Assembly: GCA_027315255.1 (NCBI GenBank)
Contig: DAHUYL010000171.1
Location: forward strand, 1-33,648
Origin: Solirubrobacterales bacterium
GTDB taxonomy: Bacteria; Actinomycetota; Thermoleophilia; Solirubrobacterales; Solirubrobacteraceae
Length of the DNA: 33,648 nt
Reading direction: 5' to 3'
Shown one piece after another: positions 3,019-17,626 of the stretch. The notes under the pieces were generated by a model. That model searched no databases and had not been told where the DNA came from. It saw only the letters and a list, made by a program, of their open reading frames with translations. The first letter of the stretch is position 1. Every line of letters begins with the position of its first letter. The translations under genes were made by a program, and so were the position numbers.

Positions 3019-4137
3019 TCAGCGTTGCCACGCGTGGCCGGTGCGAATCGCGCGCATCGTGCGCGCGGTGACCAGCAGCCAGAAGCCGAGCAGGGTGAGG
3101 AACAGGGCGGCGCCTGCCCATTCGACTGGGGTGGTGTGCCAGGCGCGGGCGAGTTGGACGGTGGCGACGGTATAGGCGCCGAGCGGGAAGGTGAATGCCC
3201 ACATGCCGATGGTGTACGGGACGCCGCCGGTTCGCAGGTAGCGGATCAGCAGCGCGGCGGCGATCGCGAGCCACCAGATGCCGAGGCCCCAGAGCACGGC
3301 GGCAGCGAGCTCGGAGACGCCGTGTATCGCCGCATCGCCGGCGCCGAAGTAGGGGTGCCACGCGGCGGCGAGGCGCAGCAGTGCGAGGCTGCCGACGCCG
3401 ATCGGGCCCAGGCCAATCCACAGCGAGGGGGCGAGCTGCGCAGGTGGCAGCGGATGGAAGACGAGCCGTCCGAACAGAACCGCGGCGATCAGCACGAACA
3501 GCAGCAGCCCGATCCCGAGCGCCGCGTAGCCGGCGAGCAGCAGCAGCCGCCCGTTCGACGCGCTGACGTGTGGTAGCAGCGGGACCAGCGCCAGTGGGAT
3601 GATGATCGCGACGACGGGTGGGATGAACCAGCCGCCGTTGGCGCTGTCGCCGGCGATCCCATCGGTGGTGAAGAGCGTGTAGGCGAACAGGACGCCGGCG
3701 GCGATCGCCAGCGGCGCGCCGATCGCCGCGAGCACGGCGACGATCACCGTGACGGTGTGGGCGGGCAGGATCGAGCCGCCGACGGTGGCGGTCGTGGTGG
3801 CAAGCACGAGGACCGCGGCCGGGAGGGTGGCGTACAGCGCGCCGACGATCGGGTTGTGCAGGTCGATCACGGCGGCGTCGCGGTGGCGGACCAGCCGGGT
3901 CAGGTAGGGGATCGCGATCGTGATCACAAGCAGCCAGGCGAGCAGCGCGAACGTGACCCCGATCACGTGGGCGGTGTGGCGCAGCGCGGGCTCGGCCCCC
4001 GGGTTCAGATAGGCGGCGGTGCCAACGATGCCGGTGCCCATCACGGCTGCGAACCAGCCGGGATGAAAGCCACGCAGGATCTCCCGTGCCGGTGGTGCCG
4101 CTGAGAGCGGTTCGCGGGTGTGTGTCAGCGTGCTCAT
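3019..4137 (-). CDS. TDT-family (TehA/Mae1/SLAC1-type) anion or dicarboxylate transporter
   Basis: A 372-residue, very hydrophobic protein with about ten membrane segments. The N-terminal GFHPGWFAAVMGTGIVGTAA is the typical first helix of the tellurite-resistance/dicarboxylate transporter family, and FTFPLGAYTVATV near the C-terminus matches the conserved late helix. Family members carry C4-dicarboxylates, sulfite or chloride, or confer tellurite resistance; the sequence alone does not choose between these. ATG at 4137 has AGGAG 6 bases upstream, which fixes the start. Codon use is looser than in neighbours (ACA, TCA, GCA, TTT, CAT, TAT all occur early), and gene-poor stretches of 234 and 408 bases flank it, hinting at acquisition by transfer. 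Confidence 0.85.
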   Translation of the reverse strand: MSTLTHTREPLSAAPPAREILRGFHPGWFAAVMGTGIVGTAAYLNPGAEPALRHTAHVIGVTFALLAWLLVITIAIPYLTRLVRHRDAAVIDLHNPIVGALYATLPAAVLVLATTTATVGGSILPAHTVTVIVAVLAAIGAPLAIAAGVLFAYTLFTTDGIAGDSANGGWFIPPVVAIIIPLALVPLLPHVSASNGRLLLLAGYAALGIGLLLFVLIAAVLFGRLVFHPLPPAQLAPSLWIGLGPIGVGSLALLRLAAAWHPYFGAGDAAIHGVSELAAAVLWGLGIWWLAIAAALLIRYLRTGGVPYTIGMWAFTFPLGAYTVATVQLARAWHTTPVEWAGAALFLTLLGFWLLVTARTMRAIRTGHAWQR

Positions 4138-4545
4138 CGTTGCTCCTGTTCCGGTCGCCGTGGGCGGGTCGGCTTGAATCGCGCCGGGCAGCTCGCAGGC
4201 GGCGGCGCGGGTGTCGGTGATCGTGACGAGGCGCGTACCGCATCGGCGGGCCGAGGCTCGTGGACTCGGGGGTCGCGCGGCCGCGGTCTGCATCGGGGGT
4301 ACGTCTTACATAGGTGATCGTCAATTGAATCGAAGATGGTCGAAGCATCGTCCGCGCGCCGACGGTGGTCAACCGTAAGGCCCCCGAAATCCCCGTCCGG
4401 GTTTGCCCGCAGACCATCCCGGAGTTGCTGCCTGCGCTGCCGGGACCCGCGTCGAGCCCGGTCAACCTGACCGTCAGCCGCGGCCCGCAGCCCCGCCCCG
4501 GGGCGGGGTCGCCATCCGCTCGGCCGCTGCTGTAGCGTGGTTGCG
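4138..4545. other. Intergenic region between the TDT transporter and SDR genes
   Basis: This stretch of 408 bases holds no gene I can support; frames that stay open here have no domain character. It contains a patch unusually rich in A+T for this window (about 4307-4347, including TCAATTGAATCGAAG), with TTGACG on the minus strand at its centre as a possible -35 element for the transporter. At its right end are a perfect 18-bp palindrome (4491-4508) and the SDR promoter. Confidence 0.6.
4491..4508. repeat. Perfect 18-bp GC palindrome
   Basis: CCCCGCCCC is followed immediately by GGGGCGGGG, a self-complementary 18-mer with no loop. It lies 25 bases upstream of the -10 box of the SDR gene, so it may be a protein-binding site. 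It could also be the end of a transcript arriving from the left, but no gene on that strand is nearby. Confidence 0.5.
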
Positions 4546-5340: not shown

Positions 5341-5826
5341 ATGGCACCTGAACCGACGTACGGAGTTGCAGGGGTGCAGCCCGTCCACGCGCACACGCGG
5401 CTCTACCTTCCGGCGCTGCTGCGGATCGGGCCCGGTCAGATCAAGCGCGACGTGGCGGCAGCCGATACGTTCAACGCCAAGGTCGCGGTGCTGCTGACGC
5501 GGGTGGTGGGCACGATGTGGGCGTTCTGGGTGTTCAACGGGATCGCGCTGGTCAGCCTTCCCTCGGCGATCCAGACCGGCCAGCTCACGGTCTTGATCAA
5601 CTGGGTCAGCTCCAACTGGATTCAGCTGATCCTGCTGCCAGCGCTGATGGTCGGTCAGAACCTCCAGAACATCGCGGCCGACTCCCGCGCCGCCAAGACG
5701 TTCGAGGACATCGAGACCGTCAAGGCCGGCATGGCCACGACGCTGAACGCGCTCGACACGAAGACCGAGGGCGGGCTGAAGGAAGTGCTCGACGCGATTC
5801 ACAGGCTCGCGCCGAGCCCGAGTTGA
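5341..5826 (+). CDS. DUF1003-like small membrane protein
   Basis: A 161-residue protein with two membrane segments (about residues 50-75 and 82-102). The segment MWAFWVFNGIALVSLP, then ILLPALMVGQNLQ and a charged stretch AADSRAAKTFEDIE, follows the pattern of DUF1003 proteins (two helices, a Q-N-R/Q motif, then a coiled-coil-like tail), though weaker than typical. The C-terminal 55 residues are amphipathic and cytosolic. The function of the family is unknown. ATG at 5341 has GAGG 10 bases upstream; TAGGGT at 5297-5302 could be the -10 box, giving a leader of about 30 bases. It converges on the DRE-TIM gene with an 8-base gap. Confidence 0.7.
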   Translation: MAPEPTYGVAGVQPVHAHTRLYLPALLRIGPGQIKRDVAAADTFNAKVAVLLTRVVGTMWAFWVFNGIALVSLPSAIQTGQLTVLINWVSSNWIQLILLPALMVGQNLQNIAADSRAAKTFEDIETVKAGMATTLNALDTKTEGGLKEVLDAIHRLAPSPS

Positions 5827-5834
5827 GTCCTCGA

Positions 5835-7181
5835 TCAGGCAGGCTCCCCAGAGCGGGCGTTGCGCGCGAGTAGCTCCTCGATCTCCTCCCACTCGACGGC
5901 GGTCTGGCGGCCGGCGTCGAACTGGCGCAGCAGCTGCTCGTGGAGCGCGCGCAGCTCGGGGTCGTCCTTCGCGGCCTCGCGGCCGGTGTGCTGTCTGACC
6001 AGGAAGATCAGTCCGGCGACGCCCGAGTCCTTCGTGAAGCTCAGCTCGAGCGGGCGGCCGAGCAGCCGGGGAACGTCGAACGGCGCGTACATCCACCAGA
6101 ACTTGTTGAGCCCGTCGGCGTGGATCCCGGCGCGGGTGCGGTGCGCGTCGCGCCCGTACAGCGGGTACTTGGGCGCGACCGGCTGGCCGAGCTGCTCGTA
6201 GAGGTCGGCGAGCGAACCGAGCACGCGGAAGTCGGGCAGCTGGGGCAGGCACCCCATCCCGGCCGCGTGCAGGAGCACGGCCTCGAGCGGTGCGTTGCCG
6301 GTTCGCTCGCCCTTGCCGAGCAGCGTGCCGTTGATCACCGCGCAGCCCGCGCGCAGCGCCGCCAGGCAGGTGGCTACCGCCAGGTGGGTGTCGTTGTGAG
6401 GATGGAACTCCAGTTCGTCCGCCGGCACCCCGGCGTCGCGCAGCCCGCGGACGAGCGCCGGCACCGAGCGCGGCCAGGCGACGTCGGCGTCCGGGAGTCC
6501 CAGGCCCATCGTGTCGCAGATCCTGAACTTGGGGCGCTGCGTCTCGGGAAACGGCCGCGCAAGCTCGAGCACGGCGGCGACGAACGGGAGCACGAAGTCG
6601 CGCGGGGCGCGGGTCGCGTCCTCCAGGTGCAGGCGCGGCCGCAGGCCCGCTTCGAGCACCGCCCGCACCGCGTCGAGGTACGCGCGCGCGGCCGCGCGGC
6701 GGCCACCCGGATCGAACTTGTAGAAGGTGTGGTAGTCGCTCGCCGACGCCAGCATCCCGGTCTCCCGGACGCCGATCCGGCGCACCAGTGCCGCGTCCTT
6801 CGTGCTCGCCCGGATCCACGTCGTCGGCTCGACCGGGGCGCCGCCGCGCCAGCGCTCGAGCGCCGCCTCCAGCATCCGCCGGTCGGCATCGCGGTAGACG
6901 AAGAACTCGGCCTGGCGCAGCGCACCGCTGGCGCCGGTGAACTCGCACTGGAGCTCGTAGATCCGCACGCCCTGCTCGACGGTCAGCGGCAACCCGCCCT
7001 GCTGCCCGTCGCGGTGGGTCGTCTCGGTCGTCCACACGGCCACCGGCAGATCCGGCGGGCGGGCGGTCCAGTCGTAGACGGGGAAGCCGTCGCGCGGGAA
7101 CGCGCCGGCGAACAACTCGGGCTCCGACGGGTCGGGGAACCGCCCGAGATCGGCGCTTCCGGGTCTCGTGTCGACGCTCAC
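5835..7181 (-). CDS. DRE-TIM acyltransferase, Re-citrate synthase/homocitrate synthase type
   Basis: A 448-residue DRE-TIM metallolyase-superfamily enzyme, predicted to condense acetyl-CoA (or another acyl-CoA) with a 2-oxo acid. Catalytic and metal-site motifs are intact: TTETTHRDGQQ (Arg57, Asp58), EFHPHND (His260, His262) and GKGERTGNAPLE (about 289-300). Segments such as TTWIRAS, ETGMLASASDYHTFYKF, LEDATRAP, RICDTMGLG and AGIHADG are, as I remember them, most like the (Re)-citrate synthase and homocitrate synthase branch of anaerobes such as Clostridium kluyveri, rather than ordinary LeuA; it also lacks the LeuA regulatory domain. Citramalate, isopropylmalate or homocitrate formation remain possible. 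I chose GTG at 7181 because TAGCGT (7194-7189 on this strand) lies 7 bases upstream; GTG at 7190 would overlap that box. It is divergent from a citrate-synthase-fold regulator. Confidence 0.8.
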   Translation of the reverse strand: MSVDTRPGSADLGRFPDPSEPELFAGAFPRDGFPVYDWTARPPDLPVAVWTTETTHRDGQQGGLPLTVEQGVRIYELQCEFTGASGALRQAEFFVYRDADRRMLEAALERWRGGAPVEPTTWIRASTKDAALVRRIGVRETGMLASASDYHTFYKFDPGGRRAAARAYLDAVRAVLEAGLRPRLHLEDATRAPRDFVLPFVAAVLELARPFPETQRPKFRICDTMGLGLPDADVAWPRSVPALVRGLRDAGVPADELEFHPHNDTHLAVATCLAALRAGCAVINGTLLGKGERTGNAPLEAVLLHAAGMGCLPQLPDFRVLGSLADLYEQLGQPVAPKYPLYGRDAHRTRAGIHADGLNKFWWMYAPFDVPRLLGRPLELSFTKDSGVAGLIFLVRQHTGREAAKDDPELRALHEQLLRQFDAGRQTAVEWEEIEELLARNARSGEPA

Positions 7182-7227
7182 AGGAGACACGCTAGCAATG
7201 GCGTCAACGTTGATTTAGGATCAACCT
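7182..7227. promoter_or_regulatory. Nested palindromes over two divergent leaderless promoters
   Basis: TCAACGTTGA (7204-7213) is a perfect palindrome. It overlaps a second dyad, GTTGAT-TTAGG-ATCAAC (7209-7225). The second dyad covers TAGGAT (7216-7221), the -10 box of the rightward HTH/citrate-synthase gene, whose start follows after 6 bases. On the other strand TAGCGT (7194-7189) precedes GTG 7181 by 7 bases. Three copies of the half-site GTTGA/TCAAC within 22 bases are what one expects of an autoregulated operator, most simply bound by the HTH protein encoded next to it. Confidence 0.55.
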
Positions 7228-8400
7228 ATCGAACGCACGGACTCACTCACCTCCGAAGAGGCGGCGGCCTACCTCGGCGTCTCACGCAGGACGCTGTACG
7301 CGTACGTCAGCCGCGGCCTGCTCGCCTCCGAACCGGGGCGAGGCCGCGAGCGCCGATACCCGCGCTGGTCGCTGGAGCAGCTCCGAGCGCAGCGCGGCGG
7401 CCGGCCGGCGCCGGGGACCCAGGCGGCGGCGACGGGCGCTCCGGTCGTCGAGTCGGCGCTGACGCTGATCGACCGCGGCCGCCTCTACTACCGCGGCCGC
7501 GACGCGATCGAGCTCTCGCGCAGCGCCACGTTCGAGCAGGTGACCGGCCTGTTGTGGACGGGGCAGGCCGACGGGGCCGGGCGGCTGTTCGAGTCCGCCG
7601 CGACGGCCGCCAGCGCGCCGCCGCCCCCGACGGCCGCGACCACGGCGGATCGCCTGGTCGCCTGTCTCGTCGCGCAGCGGCGCCGTCCGGCGCTGACCCT
7701 CCGCGCGCCGACCGCCGCGACCTTCCGGGCGGCCGCCGCGATCGTCGCCGCTTTGTTCGAAGCGGCCGGGGCGACCGGCACCGGCACCGGCACCGGCACG
7801 CTCGCGCAGCGGCTCGCGCGCGGCTGGCGCACCGACCGGGTCGACGACCTGCGGGCGGCGCTGATCCTGTGCGCCGACCACGAGCTGAACGCGAGCGCGT
7901 ACACCGCGCGCGTCGTCGCGTCGACCGGCGCGACGCTGGCGAACGTGCTGCTGGCCGCGCTGTGCGCGCTCGAGGGCCGCCGCCACGGCGGCGCCACGCG
8001 TGAGGTCGCGAGCTTCCTCGACGAGGTGCAGCGCGTCGGCGTCGCCCGTGCGAGCGACCGGGTCCTCGCCGAGCGAGGATGGGTGCCGGGGCTGTGGCGC
8101 GGGGCGAGTCTGTACCCCGACGGCGACCCCCGCGCCCACGAGCTGCTGGGCCGGCTCGACCTGCCGCCGGACGGTCCGATCGCGCGGGCCGCCGAGCGCC
8201 TGCGCGAGCTCGGCGGCGGGCCGTCGATCGACTTCGCGCTCGTCGCCCTGCAACGGACGGCGCGGCTTCCACCGGACAGCGCGTTCGCGATCTTCGCGCT
8301 CGGTCGAAGCGCCGGGTGGATCGCCCACGCGCTCGAGGCGGCCGCAGAGGGGCGGCTGATCCGCCCGCGGGCACGCTATGTCGGCCCGCCGCCACGCTGA
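7228..8400 (+). CDS. HTH-fused citrate synthase-like protein, probable metabolite-sensing regulator
   Basis: A 390-residue fusion. Residues 7-52 form a MerR/excisionase-type helix-turn-helix (LTSEEAAAYLGVSRRTLYAY, then SRGLL and an RRYPRWS wing). Residues about 70-390 have a citrate synthase fold: ADHELNAS with His218, GRRHGGA with His253, YPDGDPRA, and PSIDF with Asp335. The third catalytic residue is gone: where the family has GFGH before PLYPDGDPRA, this protein has LWRGASLY, putting Ala293 at the histidine position with a two-residue insertion. It is therefore probably a ligand-binding regulator or an impaired enzyme. The frame is closed by TAG at 7216-7218 and has no ATG, GTG or TTG before 7540, inside the synthase domain; ATC at 7228, 6 bases after a TAGGAT -10 box, is the best start and gives MERTDSLTSEEAA. 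Four ACCGGC repeats (7774-7797) encode a Thr-Gly run. Confidence 0.8.
   Translation: MERTDSLTSEEAAAYLGVSRRTLYAYVSRGLLASEPGRGRERRYPRWSLEQLRAQRGGRPAPGTQAAATGAPVVESALTLIDRGRLYYRGRDAIELSRSATFEQVTGLLWTGQADGAGRLFESAATAASAPPPPTAATTADRLVACLVAQRRRPALTLRAPTAATFRAAAAIVAALFEAAGATGTGTGTGTLAQRLARGWRTDRVDDLRAALILCADHELNASAYTARVVASTGATLANVLLAALCALEGRRHGGATREVASFLDEVQRVGVARASDRVLAERGWVPGLWRGASLYPDGDPRAHELLGRLDLPPDGPIARAAERLRELGGGPSIDFALVALQRTARLPPDSAFAIFALGRSAGWIAHALEAAAEGRLIRPRARYVGPPPR
7774..7797 (+). repeat. Hexanucleotide repeat (ACCGGC)x4 inside the HTH/citrate-synthase gene
   Basis: Four perfect tandem ACCGGC units encode alternating Thr and Gly in a loop of the citrate-synthase-like domain. Loss or gain of units keeps the frame, so loop length can vary by slippage. 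Confidence 0.8.
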
Positions 8401-13659: not shown

Positions 13660-15571
13660 CGCGGCGATCCTCCGGCGTCAGCGTGACCAGCGGCTGACCG
13701 CGCTCGACCCGGTCCCCGGGAGCCAGTGCCAGCGCCGTCACCAGCCCGTCGTGGGGCGCCTGGATAGAGTGCTCCATCTTCATCGATTCGAGCACCAGCA
13801 GCACGTCTCCGGCTGATACGCGCGCACCTTCGCCGGCGCGCACCTCGACGACGGTGCCCGGCATCGGCGCCGCGAGCGACTCGGGGCCGCCCGTGCCCGC
13901 GACGCGGTCGCGGCGCCGCGGGCGCAGCTCCAGCTGGAACCCGTCGCGACCGATCCAGGCGCAGTCGCCGGCGGTCGCGACCGCGTACCGGCGCACGAAG
14001 CCGTCGAGCTCGATCGCGAAGCACCCCTCACCCAGGCGGCGCACCACAGCCGGGTGAACCGTGTCACCGTGCTGCACCTGCCCGCCGGCGACGCGCACTG
14101 CTCCCTGCTCGAACTCGCGCCGCCACGGCCCCGGCGGTTCCGAGGAGCCGGCGAGCGCCAGCGCGCCGGCGAGCAGGAGGTCGCCCGGCGGGGCGGGGTC
14201 GAACGCCGCGAGCACGCGCTCGAGCAGATCGGTGTCGAGCTCGCCGCGCTGTACCTCCGGGTGTGCGAGCAGTGTACGTGTGAAAGTGACACTCGTCGGC
14301 ACTCCGAGCAGCTCGAGCTCGGCCAGCGCACGGTCGAGCCGCCCGAGTGCCTGCGGGCGGTCAGGTGCGTGGGCGATCACCTTCGCCAGCAGCGGGTCGT
14401 AATGGGTGCTCACCTCGACGCCCTCGCGGACACCCGAATCGACCCTCGCGCCCGCGGGTTCGCGGTAGCGCCGCACGGTGCCCGCCGCCGGCAGGAAACC
14501 GGCGGCGGGGTCCTCGGCGTAAACCCGCGCCTCGATCGCGTGGCCGCTGCATTCGAGCTGCTCCTGCCGCAGCGCGAGCGGCTCGCCGGCGGCGATCCGG
14601 AGCTGCTGCTCGACCAGGTCCACGCCGAACACGAGCTCGGTGACCGGATGCTCCACCTGCAGGCGCGTGTTCATCTCGAGGAAGTGGAACGCGCCGGTGC
14701 CGGCTTGGGTGCCGGCACCGGCGGGTGCAACCGGCTCGCAGGTGCCACCGTCCCGCGTGCCCGCGGGCACCACGAACTCGACCGTGCCGGCGCCCTCGTA
14801 GCCGCACGCCCGGGCGAGCGCGACCGCTGCCGCGCCGAGCCGCGCACGCAGCTCCGCTCCGACCGCAGGCGACGGCGCCTCCTCGACCACCTTCTGGAGG
14901 CGGCGCTGGAGCGAGCACTCGCGCTCGCCGAGGTGCACGACGCCACCGTGGCGGTCGGCGAGGACCTGCACCTCGACGTGCCTTGAGTGATCTATCCACA
15001 ACTCGATCAGCACCCGGTCGTCGCCGAACGCGGCGAGCGCCTCGCGGCGGGCGGCGGCCGTTGCCTGCTCGAGCTGCTCCGCGCTGCGCACGACGCGCAG
15101 GCCTCGCCCCCCGCCGCCGGCGAGCGCCTTCACGACCACGGGCCACGGCCCGTCGGGCCCGGCCTCCGGGATCACGGGCACCCCCGCCGCAGCGGCGGCC
15201 GCTTTGGCCCGCTGCTTGTCGCCCATCAGCGTGATCGCGCTCGGCGGAGGGCCGATCCAGACGAGGCCGGCTGCCTGCACCGCTTCGGCGAACGCCGCGT
15301 TCTCGGACAGGAAGCCGTACCCGGGGTGAACCGCGGCTGCGCCGGCCAGCGCGGCCGCGGCGACGATGCCCTCGATCGCGAGGTAGGAGTCGATCCGCAC
15401 CGCGGCGTCGACCCGGTCGATGTGAAGCGCCCCGGACCGGGCGTCCGCATCGGTGAACACGCCGACGCTGCGCAGCCCGAGCCGGTGCAGGGTGCGGGCG
15501 ATCCGGATCGCGATCTCGCCGCGGTTGGCGATCAGGACCGGCGACAGCGCAAGCAGCGACGACTCACCCAC
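13646..15571 (-). CDS. accA1: Acyl-CoA carboxylase alpha subunit (biotin carboxylase plus biotin carrier)
   Basis: A 641-residue fusion: biotin carboxylase (about 1-450, starting [21 protein letters not shown]-grasp loop [10 protein letters not shown]; active-site [14 protein letters not shown]) and a C-terminal biotinyl domain ([13 protein letters not shown], biotin on the Lys of MKM). ATP-dependent carboxylation of biotin feeds the beta subunit encoded next, predicted to act on 3-methylcrotonyl-CoA. GTG at 15571 overlaps the hmgL stop by 8 bases. An oddity is an insertion of roughly 22 residues between the strand GAGTVEFVV and FHFLEMN; it is encoded by palindromic DNA (14693-14770) that reads [10 protein letters not shown]. 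The insertion is in frame and the flanking motifs are intact, so the enzyme is probably active. Confidence 0.92.
14693..14770. repeat. In-frame palindromic element in the accA1 gene (copy 1)
   Basis: GCCGGTGCCGGC (14693-14704) and GCCGGCACCGGC (14711-14722) form a perfect 12-bp stem around TTGGGT. A second perfect palindrome, GTGCCCGCGGGCAC, follows at 14757-14770. On the coding strand the core reads GCCGGCACCCAAGCCGGC, encoding AGTQAG. A core with a single difference (one C changed to A) occurs at 30872-30889 in another gene and encodes the same residues. Confidence 0.65.
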
Positions 15572-16478
15572 GGTGCCAGTCCACCGGGCCGGCGACGAGC
15601 GTGTGCGAGCCGAGGCGGCGACCAAGGGTGCGCTGGACCTCGGCGGTTGCCTCGAGCAGCGCCGGCAGGTCGACCCCGGTCTGCACCCCCATCTCGTGGA
15701 GCATGCCGACCAGGTCCTCGGTCGCGATGTTGCCGGTGGCGCCGGGCGGGACCGGGCAGCCGCCGAGCTCGCCGAAGCTCGACTCGAACGACGTGCAGCC
15801 CGCCTGGAGCGCCGCCAGCGCGTTGGCGAGCCCCTGGCCGCGTGTGTTGTGGAAGTGGGCGGTCAGCTCGATCTCCGGCAGCACCGCCCGGGCGGCGGCG
15901 AAGAACTCGCCCACCTGGACCGGGTTGGCCATTCCGGTGGTGTCGCCGAAGCCGATCTCCTCGGCTCCGAAGGCAGCCAGTGCGGTGGCGAGCGCGAGCA
16001 CCCGCTCGCGTGGCACCGGCCCCTCGTACGGGCACCCGAACGCGACGCTGATCACCGCCTCGGCCCGCAACCCCTCGCCGCGGGCGCGGACGATCACGCG
16101 GTCGAGCCCGCGCAGTGACTCCTCGACCGTGCGGCCGACGTTGTGGCGGTTGTGTGTCTCGGACGCGCTCAGGAAGCAGTTCACCTCGTGAAAGCGGTCA
16201 CGGTGAACGAGGGCCCGGTCGAGTCCCCGCTCGTTCGGGATCAGCACGGTCAACGCGACACCGTCCGGAACGTCGATCCGCGCGAGCACCTCCTCCGCGT
16301 CGGCCAGCTGCGGGATCACGTCGGGACGCACGAACGAGGTGACCTCCAGCCGCGGCACCCCGGTTCGCGCGAGCAACTCGATCAACCGCACCTTCTCGGC
16401 GGTGGGGATCACCTCGGGCTCGTTCTGGAAACCGTCACGCGGTCCGACCTCCCGGATCGAGACGCGGGCGGGCAGCAC
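15564..16478 (-). CDS. hmgL: Hydroxymethylglutaryl-CoA lyase
   Basis: A 304-residue TIM-barrel lyase that splits HMG-CoA into acetoacetate and acetyl-CoA, the last step of leucine/isovalerate breakdown. VSIREVGPRDGFQNEP carries the catalytic Arg-Asp pair; VTSFVRPDVIPQLAD, GFGDTTGMANP, TAHFHNTRGQGLAN (metal-binding His-x-His) and ELGGCPVPPGATGNIATEDLV (with the flexible-loop Cys of the G-GCP motif) are all diagnostic and intact. GTG at 16478 shares its G with the TAG stop of the acyl-CoA dehydrogenase gene (TAGTG), so translation is coupled. Length matches the family (about 300). Confidence 0.95.
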   Translation of the reverse strand: MLPARVSIREVGPRDGFQNEPEVIPTAEKVRLIELLARTGVPRLEVTSFVRPDVIPQLADAEEVLARIDVPDGVALTVLIPNERGLDRALVHRDRFHEVNCFLSASETHNRHNVGRTVEESLRGLDRVIVRARGEGLRAEAVISVAFGCPYEGPVPRERVLALATALAAFGAEEIGFGDTTGMANPVQVGEFFAAARAVLPEIELTAHFHNTRGQGLANALAALQAGCTSFESSFGELGGCPVPPGATGNIATEDLVGMLHEMGVQTGVDLPALLEATAEVQRTLGRRLGSHTLVAGPVDWHRG

Positions 16479-17626
16479 TACGCCCCCAGCGCCCGCGCGA
16501 TCACCATCTGCTGAACCTCGTCGGTCCCCTCGCCGATCGTCAGGATCTTCGCGTCGCGGTACATGCGACACACCGGGTACTCCTCGATGTACCCGTAGCC
16601 ACCGTGGATCTGGACCGCCTCCTCGGTCGCGCGCACGGCGAGCCTTCCGGACTTGAGCTTCGCCTGCGCCGCGCATAGGCTGAAGTTGCGCCCTGCGTCC
16701 TTCAGCGCGGCCGCCTTGCAGGTCAGCAGGCGGGCCGCCTCGACCTCGGTCGCGATGTCGGCGAGCTTCGCCTGGATCGCCTGGAACTTCGAGATCGGCC
16801 GTCCGAACGCCTGGCGCTGCCTGGCGTACGCGAGCGCCTCGTCGAACGCGCCCTGAGCCAGCCCGACGCCCATCGCCGCCACGCCGATCCGGCCGATGTC
16901 GAGGATCTGGAGGAACTGCCGGAAGCCGGCGCCGCGCGGGCCGAGCAGGTTCTCCTCGGGAACACGACACTCGGTGAACGTCAGCGGGCGCGTGTCGGAC
17001 GCGTTCCAGCCCATCTTGCGGTACGGCTCGCCCTGCTCGTAGCCGGGGGTGCCGTTCTCGACGATCAGGTTGGAGATCTCGGCTTCGCCCGTCACGGCGG
17101 TGATCGCCACCACACCGGAGATCCTCGTGCCCGCGTTGGTGATGAACTGCTTGGCGCCGTCGATCACCCACTCGCCGTCGCGCAGCACGGCCCGGGTCCT
17201 GGTGTTGCCCGCGTCGCTTCCCGCCTCGGGCTCGGTCAGCCCGAACGCGCCGAGCCTGCGCCCGCTCGTCAGCTCCGGGAGCAACCGCTCCTGCTGGTCG
17301 GCACTACCGAACAGGTAGATCGGCTGCGTGCCGAGCGACGTGTGCGCGCACATCGTGATCGCCACCGACGAGTCGACCCGGGTCAGTTCCTCGACCGCGA
17401 TCGCGTACTGCAGCGTCGTTCCGCCGGCGCCGCCGACGCGCTCGGGGAACGGGATCCCCATCCAGCCGAGCTCGCCCATCTTCGCGACCAGCTCGTACGG
17501 GAACCGCTTGTCGCGGTCGAGCTCGGCAGCGACCGGCGCGACCTCGCGCTCGGCGAAGTCGCGGACCGTACGTCGCAGCAGTTCGGTGTCGTCGTCGAGC
17601 TCGAACAGCATCGCGGCCGCGATCAT
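16478..17626 (-). CDS. acdH: Acyl-CoA dehydrogenase (AcdH-like, branched or short chain)
   Basis: A 382-residue FAD-dependent acyl-CoA dehydrogenase. [16 protein letters not shown] is the flavin and substrate motif, [18 protein letters not shown] and [21 protein letters not shown] the conserved C-terminal half. The catalytic Glu is in the standard position ([10 protein letters not shown]), whereas isovaleryl-CoA dehydrogenases have Ala or Gly there and use a Glu in the DLER segment; here that segment reads DIGRIGV. It should therefore be called a short or branched-chain dehydrogenase, not strictly isovaleryl-CoA dehydrogenase. Gene order acdH-hmgL-accA1-accD1 is that known from Streptomyces. 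ATG at 17626 is used as start; ATG at 17611 is equally plausible and neither has a Shine-Dalgarno sequence. Confidence 0.92.

Follow-up and report, generated by a model that had tools for sequence, protein, structure and literature searches.

Re-citrate synthases have been described from Clostridium kluyveri, Dehalococcoides and Heliomicrobium. The known Re-citrate synthase is described as oxygen-sensitive and comes from anaerobes, the enzyme of Dehalococcoides is confirmed, and the Re-citrate synthases themselves form groups that are only ~28% identical (PMC12016533). Enzyme-derived regulators as such are already known; MocR, in which an aminotransferase fold is joined to a helix-turn-helix (HTH), is a one-component regulator of this kind (PMC5320631). 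The subject of this report is a divergent gene pair in a stretch of 33,648 nucleotides (the window) from a Solirubrobacterales bacterium (assembly GCA_027315255.1, contig DAHUYL010000171.1), in which a gene for a DRE-TIM synthase faces a gene for a protein, HTH-CS, that joins an HTH to a citrate-synthase fold. On sequence evidence we consider it rather probable that the two form a module in which HTH-CS controls the divergent DRE-TIM gene, for an auxiliary citrate synthase, through a conserved operator.

The window enzyme shares the DRE-TIM fold and the catalytic motifs with Re-citrate synthase. HTH-CS resembles MocR in the apparent reuse of an enzyme fold as a sensor, in its HTH and in its specific predicted operator; unlike MocR, it has a citrate-synthase fold, and the enzyme that it is predicted to control is unrelated to it but apparently catalyses the reaction of that fold. 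HTH-CS also resembles MerR and excisionase-type proteins, as it matches both HTH_17 and MerR_1. MerR operators lie between the −35 and −10 boxes, whereas the operator predicted for HTH-CS ends at a −35-like box. By profile and fold, mycobacterial CitA and PRK12350 (citrate synthase 2) are among the nearest to HTH-CS, and this is also the type of two partner enzymes of HTH-CS that were tested. HTH-CS differs from this type by the added HTH and by its best citrate synthase model score, 129.6 bits, which is below the PRK12350 cut-off of 332 bits. No description of an HTH-citrate-synthase regulator was recognised in searches of the open-access literature.

The divergent pair and its conservation

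The leftward gene (5835..7190, minus strand) encodes a DRE-TIM Claisen-condensing synthase of 451 codons from the listed GTG at 7190, and a GTG at 7181 is a possible start. The protein matches PF00682 (HMGL-like) with an E value of 3.2e-24 and contains the motifs RDG, LEDATR, HPHND, GKGERTGN and GIHADG; its relatives in Deinococcus are annotated as 'pyruvate carboxyltransferase'. The AlphaFold2 model is a TIM-barrel synthase with a predicted local distance difference test score (pLDDT) of 85.8, for which the top PDB matches found by Foldseek are methylthioalkylmalate and homocitrate synthases. The rightward HTH-CS frame (7219..8400, plus strand) has 393 codons. It features an HTH_17 DNA-binding domain (7246..7395, plus strand; residues 10–59 of P0001, E 3.5e-13) and a citrate synthase domain (Citrate_synt, PF00285; 7432..8370, plus strand; residues 72–384, E 2.8e-50). 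The AlphaFold2 model has a citrate-synthase fold (pLDDT 89.5), and its top PDB matches by Foldseek (E 4e-14) are the Thermotoga maritima citrate synthase and mycobacterial CitA. The first-pass annotation of this DNA had described two unrelated folds standing back to back, a full set of DRE-TIM catalytic motifs in the leftward gene and a Si-citrate-synthase fold fused to an HTH in the rightward one, and all of these features were found.

The divergent pair is real and conserved. Close relatives of the enzyme (L015–L076, n = 62, at least 56% identity) were gathered with two peptide patterns in a contig scan; because they come from the best 80 of 82 places, their count is a sample. Four loci with fewer than 900 bases upstream were left out of the pairing count. 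HTH-CS lies divergent from the DRE-TIM gene in 41 of the remaining 58 relatives, one of which, L049, carries a degenerate HTH-CS. The pair is spread over Chloroflexota, Deinococcota, Actinomycetota, Verrucomicrobiota and other groups, so that the conserved divergence for which a genome survey had been proposed does exist across phyla. The pair is also carried on plasmids in Deinococcus wulumuqiensis and Deinococcus sp. QL22, where the enzyme identities are 75% and 69%. The enzyme copy of Deinococcus sp. QL22 (L011, 8013–9337) is annotated as two adjacent frames and is probably broken or affected by a sequencing error.

No further gene recurs at a fixed position beside the pair, and the clusters of neighbours common to at most 11 loci are scattered in position; a function read from conserved further neighbours was therefore rejected. 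The only neighbour with a fixed place is a small GntR-like gene in four loci (L047, L048, L051 and L058), seen by eye directly upstream of the DRE-TIM gene and codirectional with it. It sits where HTH-CS and the operator are missing.

The predicted operator

The predicted operator, TTGATCCTAAATCAACGTTGAC, lies at 7203..7224 on the minus strand and reads towards the DRE-TIM gene. It is a 22-base match to the pattern TTGAT-N5-8-ATCAA-N2-TTGAC, which is oriented towards the enzyme gene. The palindrome GTTGAT-N5-ATCAAC at 7209–7225, between the two genes, is part of this match and agrees with the earlier observation of palindromes there. This match occurs a single time in the window and in none of 100 shuffles, and the exact operator has a single site, at this locus, in the window's genome (4.3 Mb, 92% complete). 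When 65 HTH-CS loci in all contexts were scored within 180 bases, 46 reached 15/15 and 54 reached at least 14, while the top score in 1300 two-base-block shuffles was 13, with none at 14 or above. The motif was first read from the same HTH-CS loci, so this scoring is an enrichment and not an independent discovery. Gaps of 5–8 were allowed, as the plasmid loci have a gap of 7 and escape a pattern with the gap fixed at 6. L125, L127 and L132, the same loci as L032, L045 and L072, were dropped from the scoring and from the HTH-CS tree. L059 and L062 score low because their exact operator lies beyond 180 bases, and L134 and L135 because HTH-CS is convergent with its citrate synthase. In L134 the two genes are convergent, yet an exact operator precedes the citrate synthase gene.

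The independent part of the operator evidence comes from genome scans. The exact operator occurs in 28 of 50 carrier genomes, one copy each, and stands before the DRE-TIM gene in 27 of the 28; a reversed-pattern control gave 0. Scanning 396 Actinomycetota genomes placed it at 16 positions in 15 genomes (control pattern, 2), eight beside HTH-CS and eight not, and in 111 genomes of the Calidithermus phylum it was found three times, each time with HTH-CS beside it. The predicted operator is conserved across phyla. An exact operator also precedes a peptidase S58 gene that has no HTH-CS beside it (L118, G214:C359:7644-7666), which makes this gene a possible second member of the regulon.

The presence of the operator follows the presence of HTH-CS. 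An operator in front of the DRE-TIM gene is seen in 35 of the 37 carrier genomes that possess HTH-CS (adjacent in 34, elsewhere in 3) and in 0 of the 11 that lack it (Fisher p 3.5e-9, uncorrected for relatedness). In this table 50 of the 62 loci were coded, L046 (no upstream DNA) and L035 (ambiguous) were dropped, and the presence of HTH-CS was coded by hand from the locus survey and genome searches. In G222, G224 and G238 HTH-CS lies elsewhere in the genome and the operator still stands before the DRE-TIM gene. The distant HTH-CS of G224 adjoins a 14/15 operator site; no operator was found in the stretch examined around the distant HTH-CS of G222 and G238.

The operator usually lies at a −35-like promoter element. 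When its TTGACN is taken as a −35 box, TAnnnT follows 17 bases on in 26 of 63 loci and 18 bases on in 14, compared to 0–2 loci at any other single spacing; the pooled spacings 16–19 account for 42 of 63 loci against a shuffled mean of 4.3. With TAnnnT at 17 or 18 bases in 40 of the 63 loci, the operator's final five bases would serve as the −35 box of the controlled gene in most of them. In the window the TTGACG at 7202..7207 (minus strand) corresponds to this likely −35 box of the relatives. In L010, L015, L017, L056 and L189 an ATG, read by eye, lies 6–7 bases past the −10, which looks like the arrangement of a leaderless transcript.

Control of the facing enzyme by HTH-CS, as the first-pass annotation had proposed, is well supported by the conserved divergence, by the exact operator that most often has a single copy in a carrier genome, by its place at a −35-like box, by the co-occurrence of operator and HTH-CS and by the three genomes in which they are unlinked. 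The pairing could be a matter of chance neighbours, as the enzyme is rare nearby (1 of 201 genomes searched in the window's order, the window's own, at E 1e-30), but pairing and operator are conserved across phyla and leave that idea with next to no probability.

Exchange of the partner gene

The same regulator is also found facing other genes. On plasmids of Agrobacterium, Chelatococcus and Pararhizobium it faces a citrate synthase without an HTH, and plasmid loci with swapped partners keep the operator at 14 or 15 of 15. In the phylum of G224, which we take to be Chloroflexota, the HTH-CS profile was matched in 19 of 201 genomes, two of them without the HTH part. Among the other 17, HTH-CS faces a non-HTH citrate synthase in 11, is convergent with one in two, does neither in one, and faces a DRE-TIM gene of the window clade in three (loci already in the set). 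The eight Actinomycetota HTH-CS sites comprise five that face a citrate-synthase-fold protein, two that face the window clade (the window included) and L178. The partner in L178 is 50–57% identical to the Re-citrate synthase candidates described below and joins them with supports of 100/100. Both genes of L178, HTH-CS and the Re-type synthase, contain in-frame repeated stretches.

Two partner citrate synthases that were tested pass the PRK12350 cut-off with 455 and 369 bits against 332 and are of the CitA type. In a tree of 83 rows, from which L049 was left out, 64 HTH-CS and 19 non-HTH citrate synthases are split by a 100/100 branch, and 14 of the 15 partner citrate synthases group in a single clade (100/98), separate from the housekeeping enzymes of the window's genome. 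Mapping five labelled partner groups onto the HTH-CS tree needs 10 changes where the minimum is 4, and the well-supported branches alone force at least three changes for the HTH-CS of citrate-synthase partners; these counts are without correction for relatedness. Partner exchange has therefore taken place more than once while the regulator stayed the same, which suggests that what is regulated is an auxiliary citrate synthase. The earlier claim that the sensor controls a functionally equivalent but unrelated enzyme gains indirect support here, as the same regulator and operator face CitA-type enzymes in many loci and a Re-type enzyme in one.

One reading of these exchanges is an exchangeable 'auxiliary citrate synthase' slot in several phyla, with one regulator and one operator, in which the partner would be a Si-type (CitA) enzyme, a Re-type enzyme or a third DRE-TIM class that includes the window enzyme. 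This third class would be so far unrecognised and found also in aerobes, which we take the carriers Deinococcus and Calidithermus to be. We hold this reading tentatively, at close to an even chance.

Several observations weigh against such a module. Seventeen of the 58 DRE-TIM loci have no adjacent HTH-CS, and TAnnnT is missing at 17–18 bases in all seven proteobacterial plasmid loci, in L176, in L178 and in the window. Plasmid HTH-CS faces a class III CoA-transferase in Azospirillum (twice) and Comamonas and a DUF2332 protein in Roseomonas. In two Deinococcota loci with the exact operator, HTH-CS faces a glycoside-hydrolase-like gene (L193) and an aminopeptidase-like gene (L194), as judged by eye, the latter followed by an ABC permease gene. 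Because CoA-transferase, DUF2332 and other genes are also faced, the slot of the regulator is not limited to citrate synthases.

Proposed mechanism

The sequences show that the genes are paired, that the motif is conserved, that it usually lies at a −35-like box and goes with the presence of HTH-CS, and that CitA-type and Re-type enzymes have been swapped in as partners; the DNA binding, ligand, sign of regulation and reaction of the module are inferred. HTH-CS would be a one-component transcription factor in which an HTH is fused to a citrate-synthase fold. It would bind the palindrome TTGAT-N-ATCAA beside the −35 box of the enzyme gene, overlapping the box through TTGAC, and would control the divergent enzyme gene and probably also its own gene. 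This control would depend on a ligand bound in the former active site, for which oxaloacetate, citrate or an acyl-CoA is the likeliest candidate. The DRE-TIM enzyme most likely condenses acetyl-CoA and oxaloacetate to citrate and would supplement the housekeeping Si-type enzyme as an inducible auxiliary citrate synthase.

The residues of HTH-CS bear on its role as a sensor. H221, H256, R305 and R363 are invariant in 28 of 28 aligned HTH-CS, and H296 and R382 are kept in at least 90%. These six correspond to the oxaloacetate pocket of citrate synthase. In pig citrate synthase the functional residues are H238, H274, H320, R324, R329, D375, R401 and R421. The first-pass annotation had called HTH-CS a former enzyme, which holds only in part: the 28 aligned proteins retain most of the residues for catalysis and carboxylate binding. 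Among the 25 commonest patterns per motif, the 'GHRVYK' of the enzymes is changed to 'GH.LYP' in most HTH-CS rows. Directly after GH..Y the enzymes have K or R, whereas most HTH-CS rows compared have P (L176 has R), and we take the residue at this position to be a contact of the CoA phosphate. The simplest reading is that HTH-CS is a carboxylate sensor with a weakened CoA site. By sequence, HTH-CS has what is expected of a one-component regulator, namely an HTH fused to a ligand-type domain and a conserved motif at the putative target promoter.

The retention of catalytic His- and Asp-type residues in most of the family would also fit an HTH-CS that is still an active citrate synthase and binds DNA in addition, so that the pair simply adds two enzymes. 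The conserved operator, mostly with one exact site per genome, speaks against this idea, as do the change to 'GH.LYP' and the missing GFGH of the window copy, and we regard it as improbable. Because the operator is conserved across phyla, the regulator idea is directly testable. If the proposed control by HTH-CS is true, an enzyme of central metabolism has given rise to a regulator family whose operator could be sought in any genome, and regulation would provide an independent argument for the function of the uncharacterised 'pyruvate carboxyltransferase' DRE-TIM clade. A single switch over three analogous citrate synthases would mean that non-homologous enzymes have replaced each other within a fixed regulatory circuit, and the question is raised why cells with a citrate synthase retain another that is controlled separately.

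Identity of the DRE-TIM enzyme

The profiles closest to the DRE-TIM enzyme are NifV and LEU1_arch. Its best NCBIfam model is the NifV homocitrate synthase TIGR02660, at 128.4 bits against a cut-off of 462.9; the bacterial and yeast-type LeuA models give 36–79 bits (cut-offs 455–748) and the CimA model 55.6 bits (cut-off 450), so that the enzyme falls below the threshold of each. The Re-citrate synthase candidates used for comparison are frames of 424–441 codons picked by size among the DRE-TIM matches of small genomes of G224's phylum that have no PF00285 match. PF00285 is absent in 12 of 64 genomes of that phylum, nine of which were searched for DRE-TIM genes.

The enzyme clade has 100/100 support in the free tree, where it sits by itself on a long branch and falls outside the LeuA clade (100/99), the CimA clade and the Re-citrate synthase candidates. 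Approximately unbiased (AU) tests gave p values of 0.32 for grouping with the Re-type candidates, 0.34 with CimA, 0.28 and 0.15 with two NifV groups, 0.21 with HCS and 0.067 with LeuA, so that no placement was rejected at 0.05 and LeuA was the least likely; L153, L163, eight clade rows and two Re-type rows were excluded from this set. A firm grouping with LeuA or the citramalate synthases, against which the phylogeny had been suggested as a check, was not found. R60, D61, E190, H263, H265, E295, N299 and H357 are kept in 63–64 of 64 clade rows. Among the groups compared, the QxEF and SGxxG patterns are common only to the enzyme clade and the Re-type candidates, and a W-x-R pattern is shared by the enzyme clade, the Re-type candidates and NifV. 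The first-pass annotation had seen the enzyme as closest to Re-citrate and homocitrate synthases; in the tree it belongs to a deep DRE-TIM clade of its own. It is neither proven to be a Re-citrate synthase nor the housekeeping enzyme.

Three findings count against the citrate synthase reading. The enzyme is 25–27% identical to the Re-type candidates and is placed separately from them. Arg186, four residues before Glu190, is present in 64 of 64 clade rows and in the Sulfolobus homocitrate synthase, and its position is Gly in the candidates. In homocitrate synthases the Arg before the ED motif binds the distal carboxylate of the 2-oxo acid. Additionally, a citrate synthase scoring above 415 bits is present in 47 of the 50 carrier genomes, which leaves no obvious need for a second one; the three exceptions are G201 (a partial match of 265 bits), G202 (pieces only) and G219 (one match of 203 bits that fits HTH-CS). 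Replacement of the housekeeping Si-citrate synthase was rejected on this ground for most carriers. The window's own genome holds two further canonical citrate synthases (473 and 412 bits). Aconitase, found in 50 of 51 genomes, is uninformative.

Arg186 also bears on a variant in which the module works as proposed and the enzyme makes 2-methylcitrate, homocitrate, citramalate or an unknown alkylmalate, with HTH-CS sensing the product or its precursor. The closest profiles, the top Foldseek matches, the AU tests that leave a grouping with CimA, NifV or HCS unrejected and the Arg shared with the Sulfolobus enzyme would all suit this variant, while the exchange with CitA-type and Re-type partners is harder to fit with it. 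Homocitrate production for nitrogenase is unlikely, as nifH was matched in 1 of 51 genomes searched and had no match in the window's genome. That genome also holds LeuA-type and CimA-type genes that are placed in those clades in the tree, and these genes, together with the missing nifH match, weaken the usual alternatives. Another product is thus possible but clearly less probable than citrate. The Re-citrate synthase reading draws on the partner exchanges, on some of the motifs and on the weakness of the other roles.

The atypical window copy

The window copy of the pair differs from its relatives. Its HTH-CS frame opens after a stop at 7216–7218 and has no ATG, GTG or TTG before the HTH; an ATC is present at 7228 where L015 has ATG, and among 68 rows a usual start codon is missing there in the window alone. 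It has GLWRGAS in place of the GFGH seen in most rows among the 25 commonest patterns. The −10-like hexamer TAGCGT (7189..7194, minus strand; read directly) lies 7 bases from TTGACG, compared to 17–18 in relatives, and 7 bases before the GTG at 7181. Without the usual start codon and GFGH, the copy may be decaying, which would make it what is left of a module still working elsewhere. However, its frame of 393 codons is open and the operator is exact. The enzyme is 73–78% identical to the three nearest relatives compared, with a ratio of nonsynonymous to synonymous differences (pN/pS) of 0.34–0.44, and the pN/pS of HTH-CS (0.57–0.67) is inside the range of the other pairs (0.42–0.67). As the frame is open and pN/pS is in range, an unusual start, decay and assembly errors in this metagenome-assembled genome would each account for these features, and decay is an explanation that we find possible but doubtful.

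Other features of the window

Inside the HTH-CS frame, four ACCGGC repeats at 7774–7797 encode a Gly-Thr stretch. A SLAC1-type channel gene (PF03595) is located near the pair at 3019–4293 of the window. In L066 a SLAC1-type gene (5360–6424; 25% identity) is directly upstream of the DRE-TIM gene, so that this association is seen in two loci only. A hydroxymethylglutaryl-CoA lyase (333 bits, cut-off 246) is encoded at 15564–17171 of the window, in a listed open reading frame with a long non-matching N-terminal stretch.

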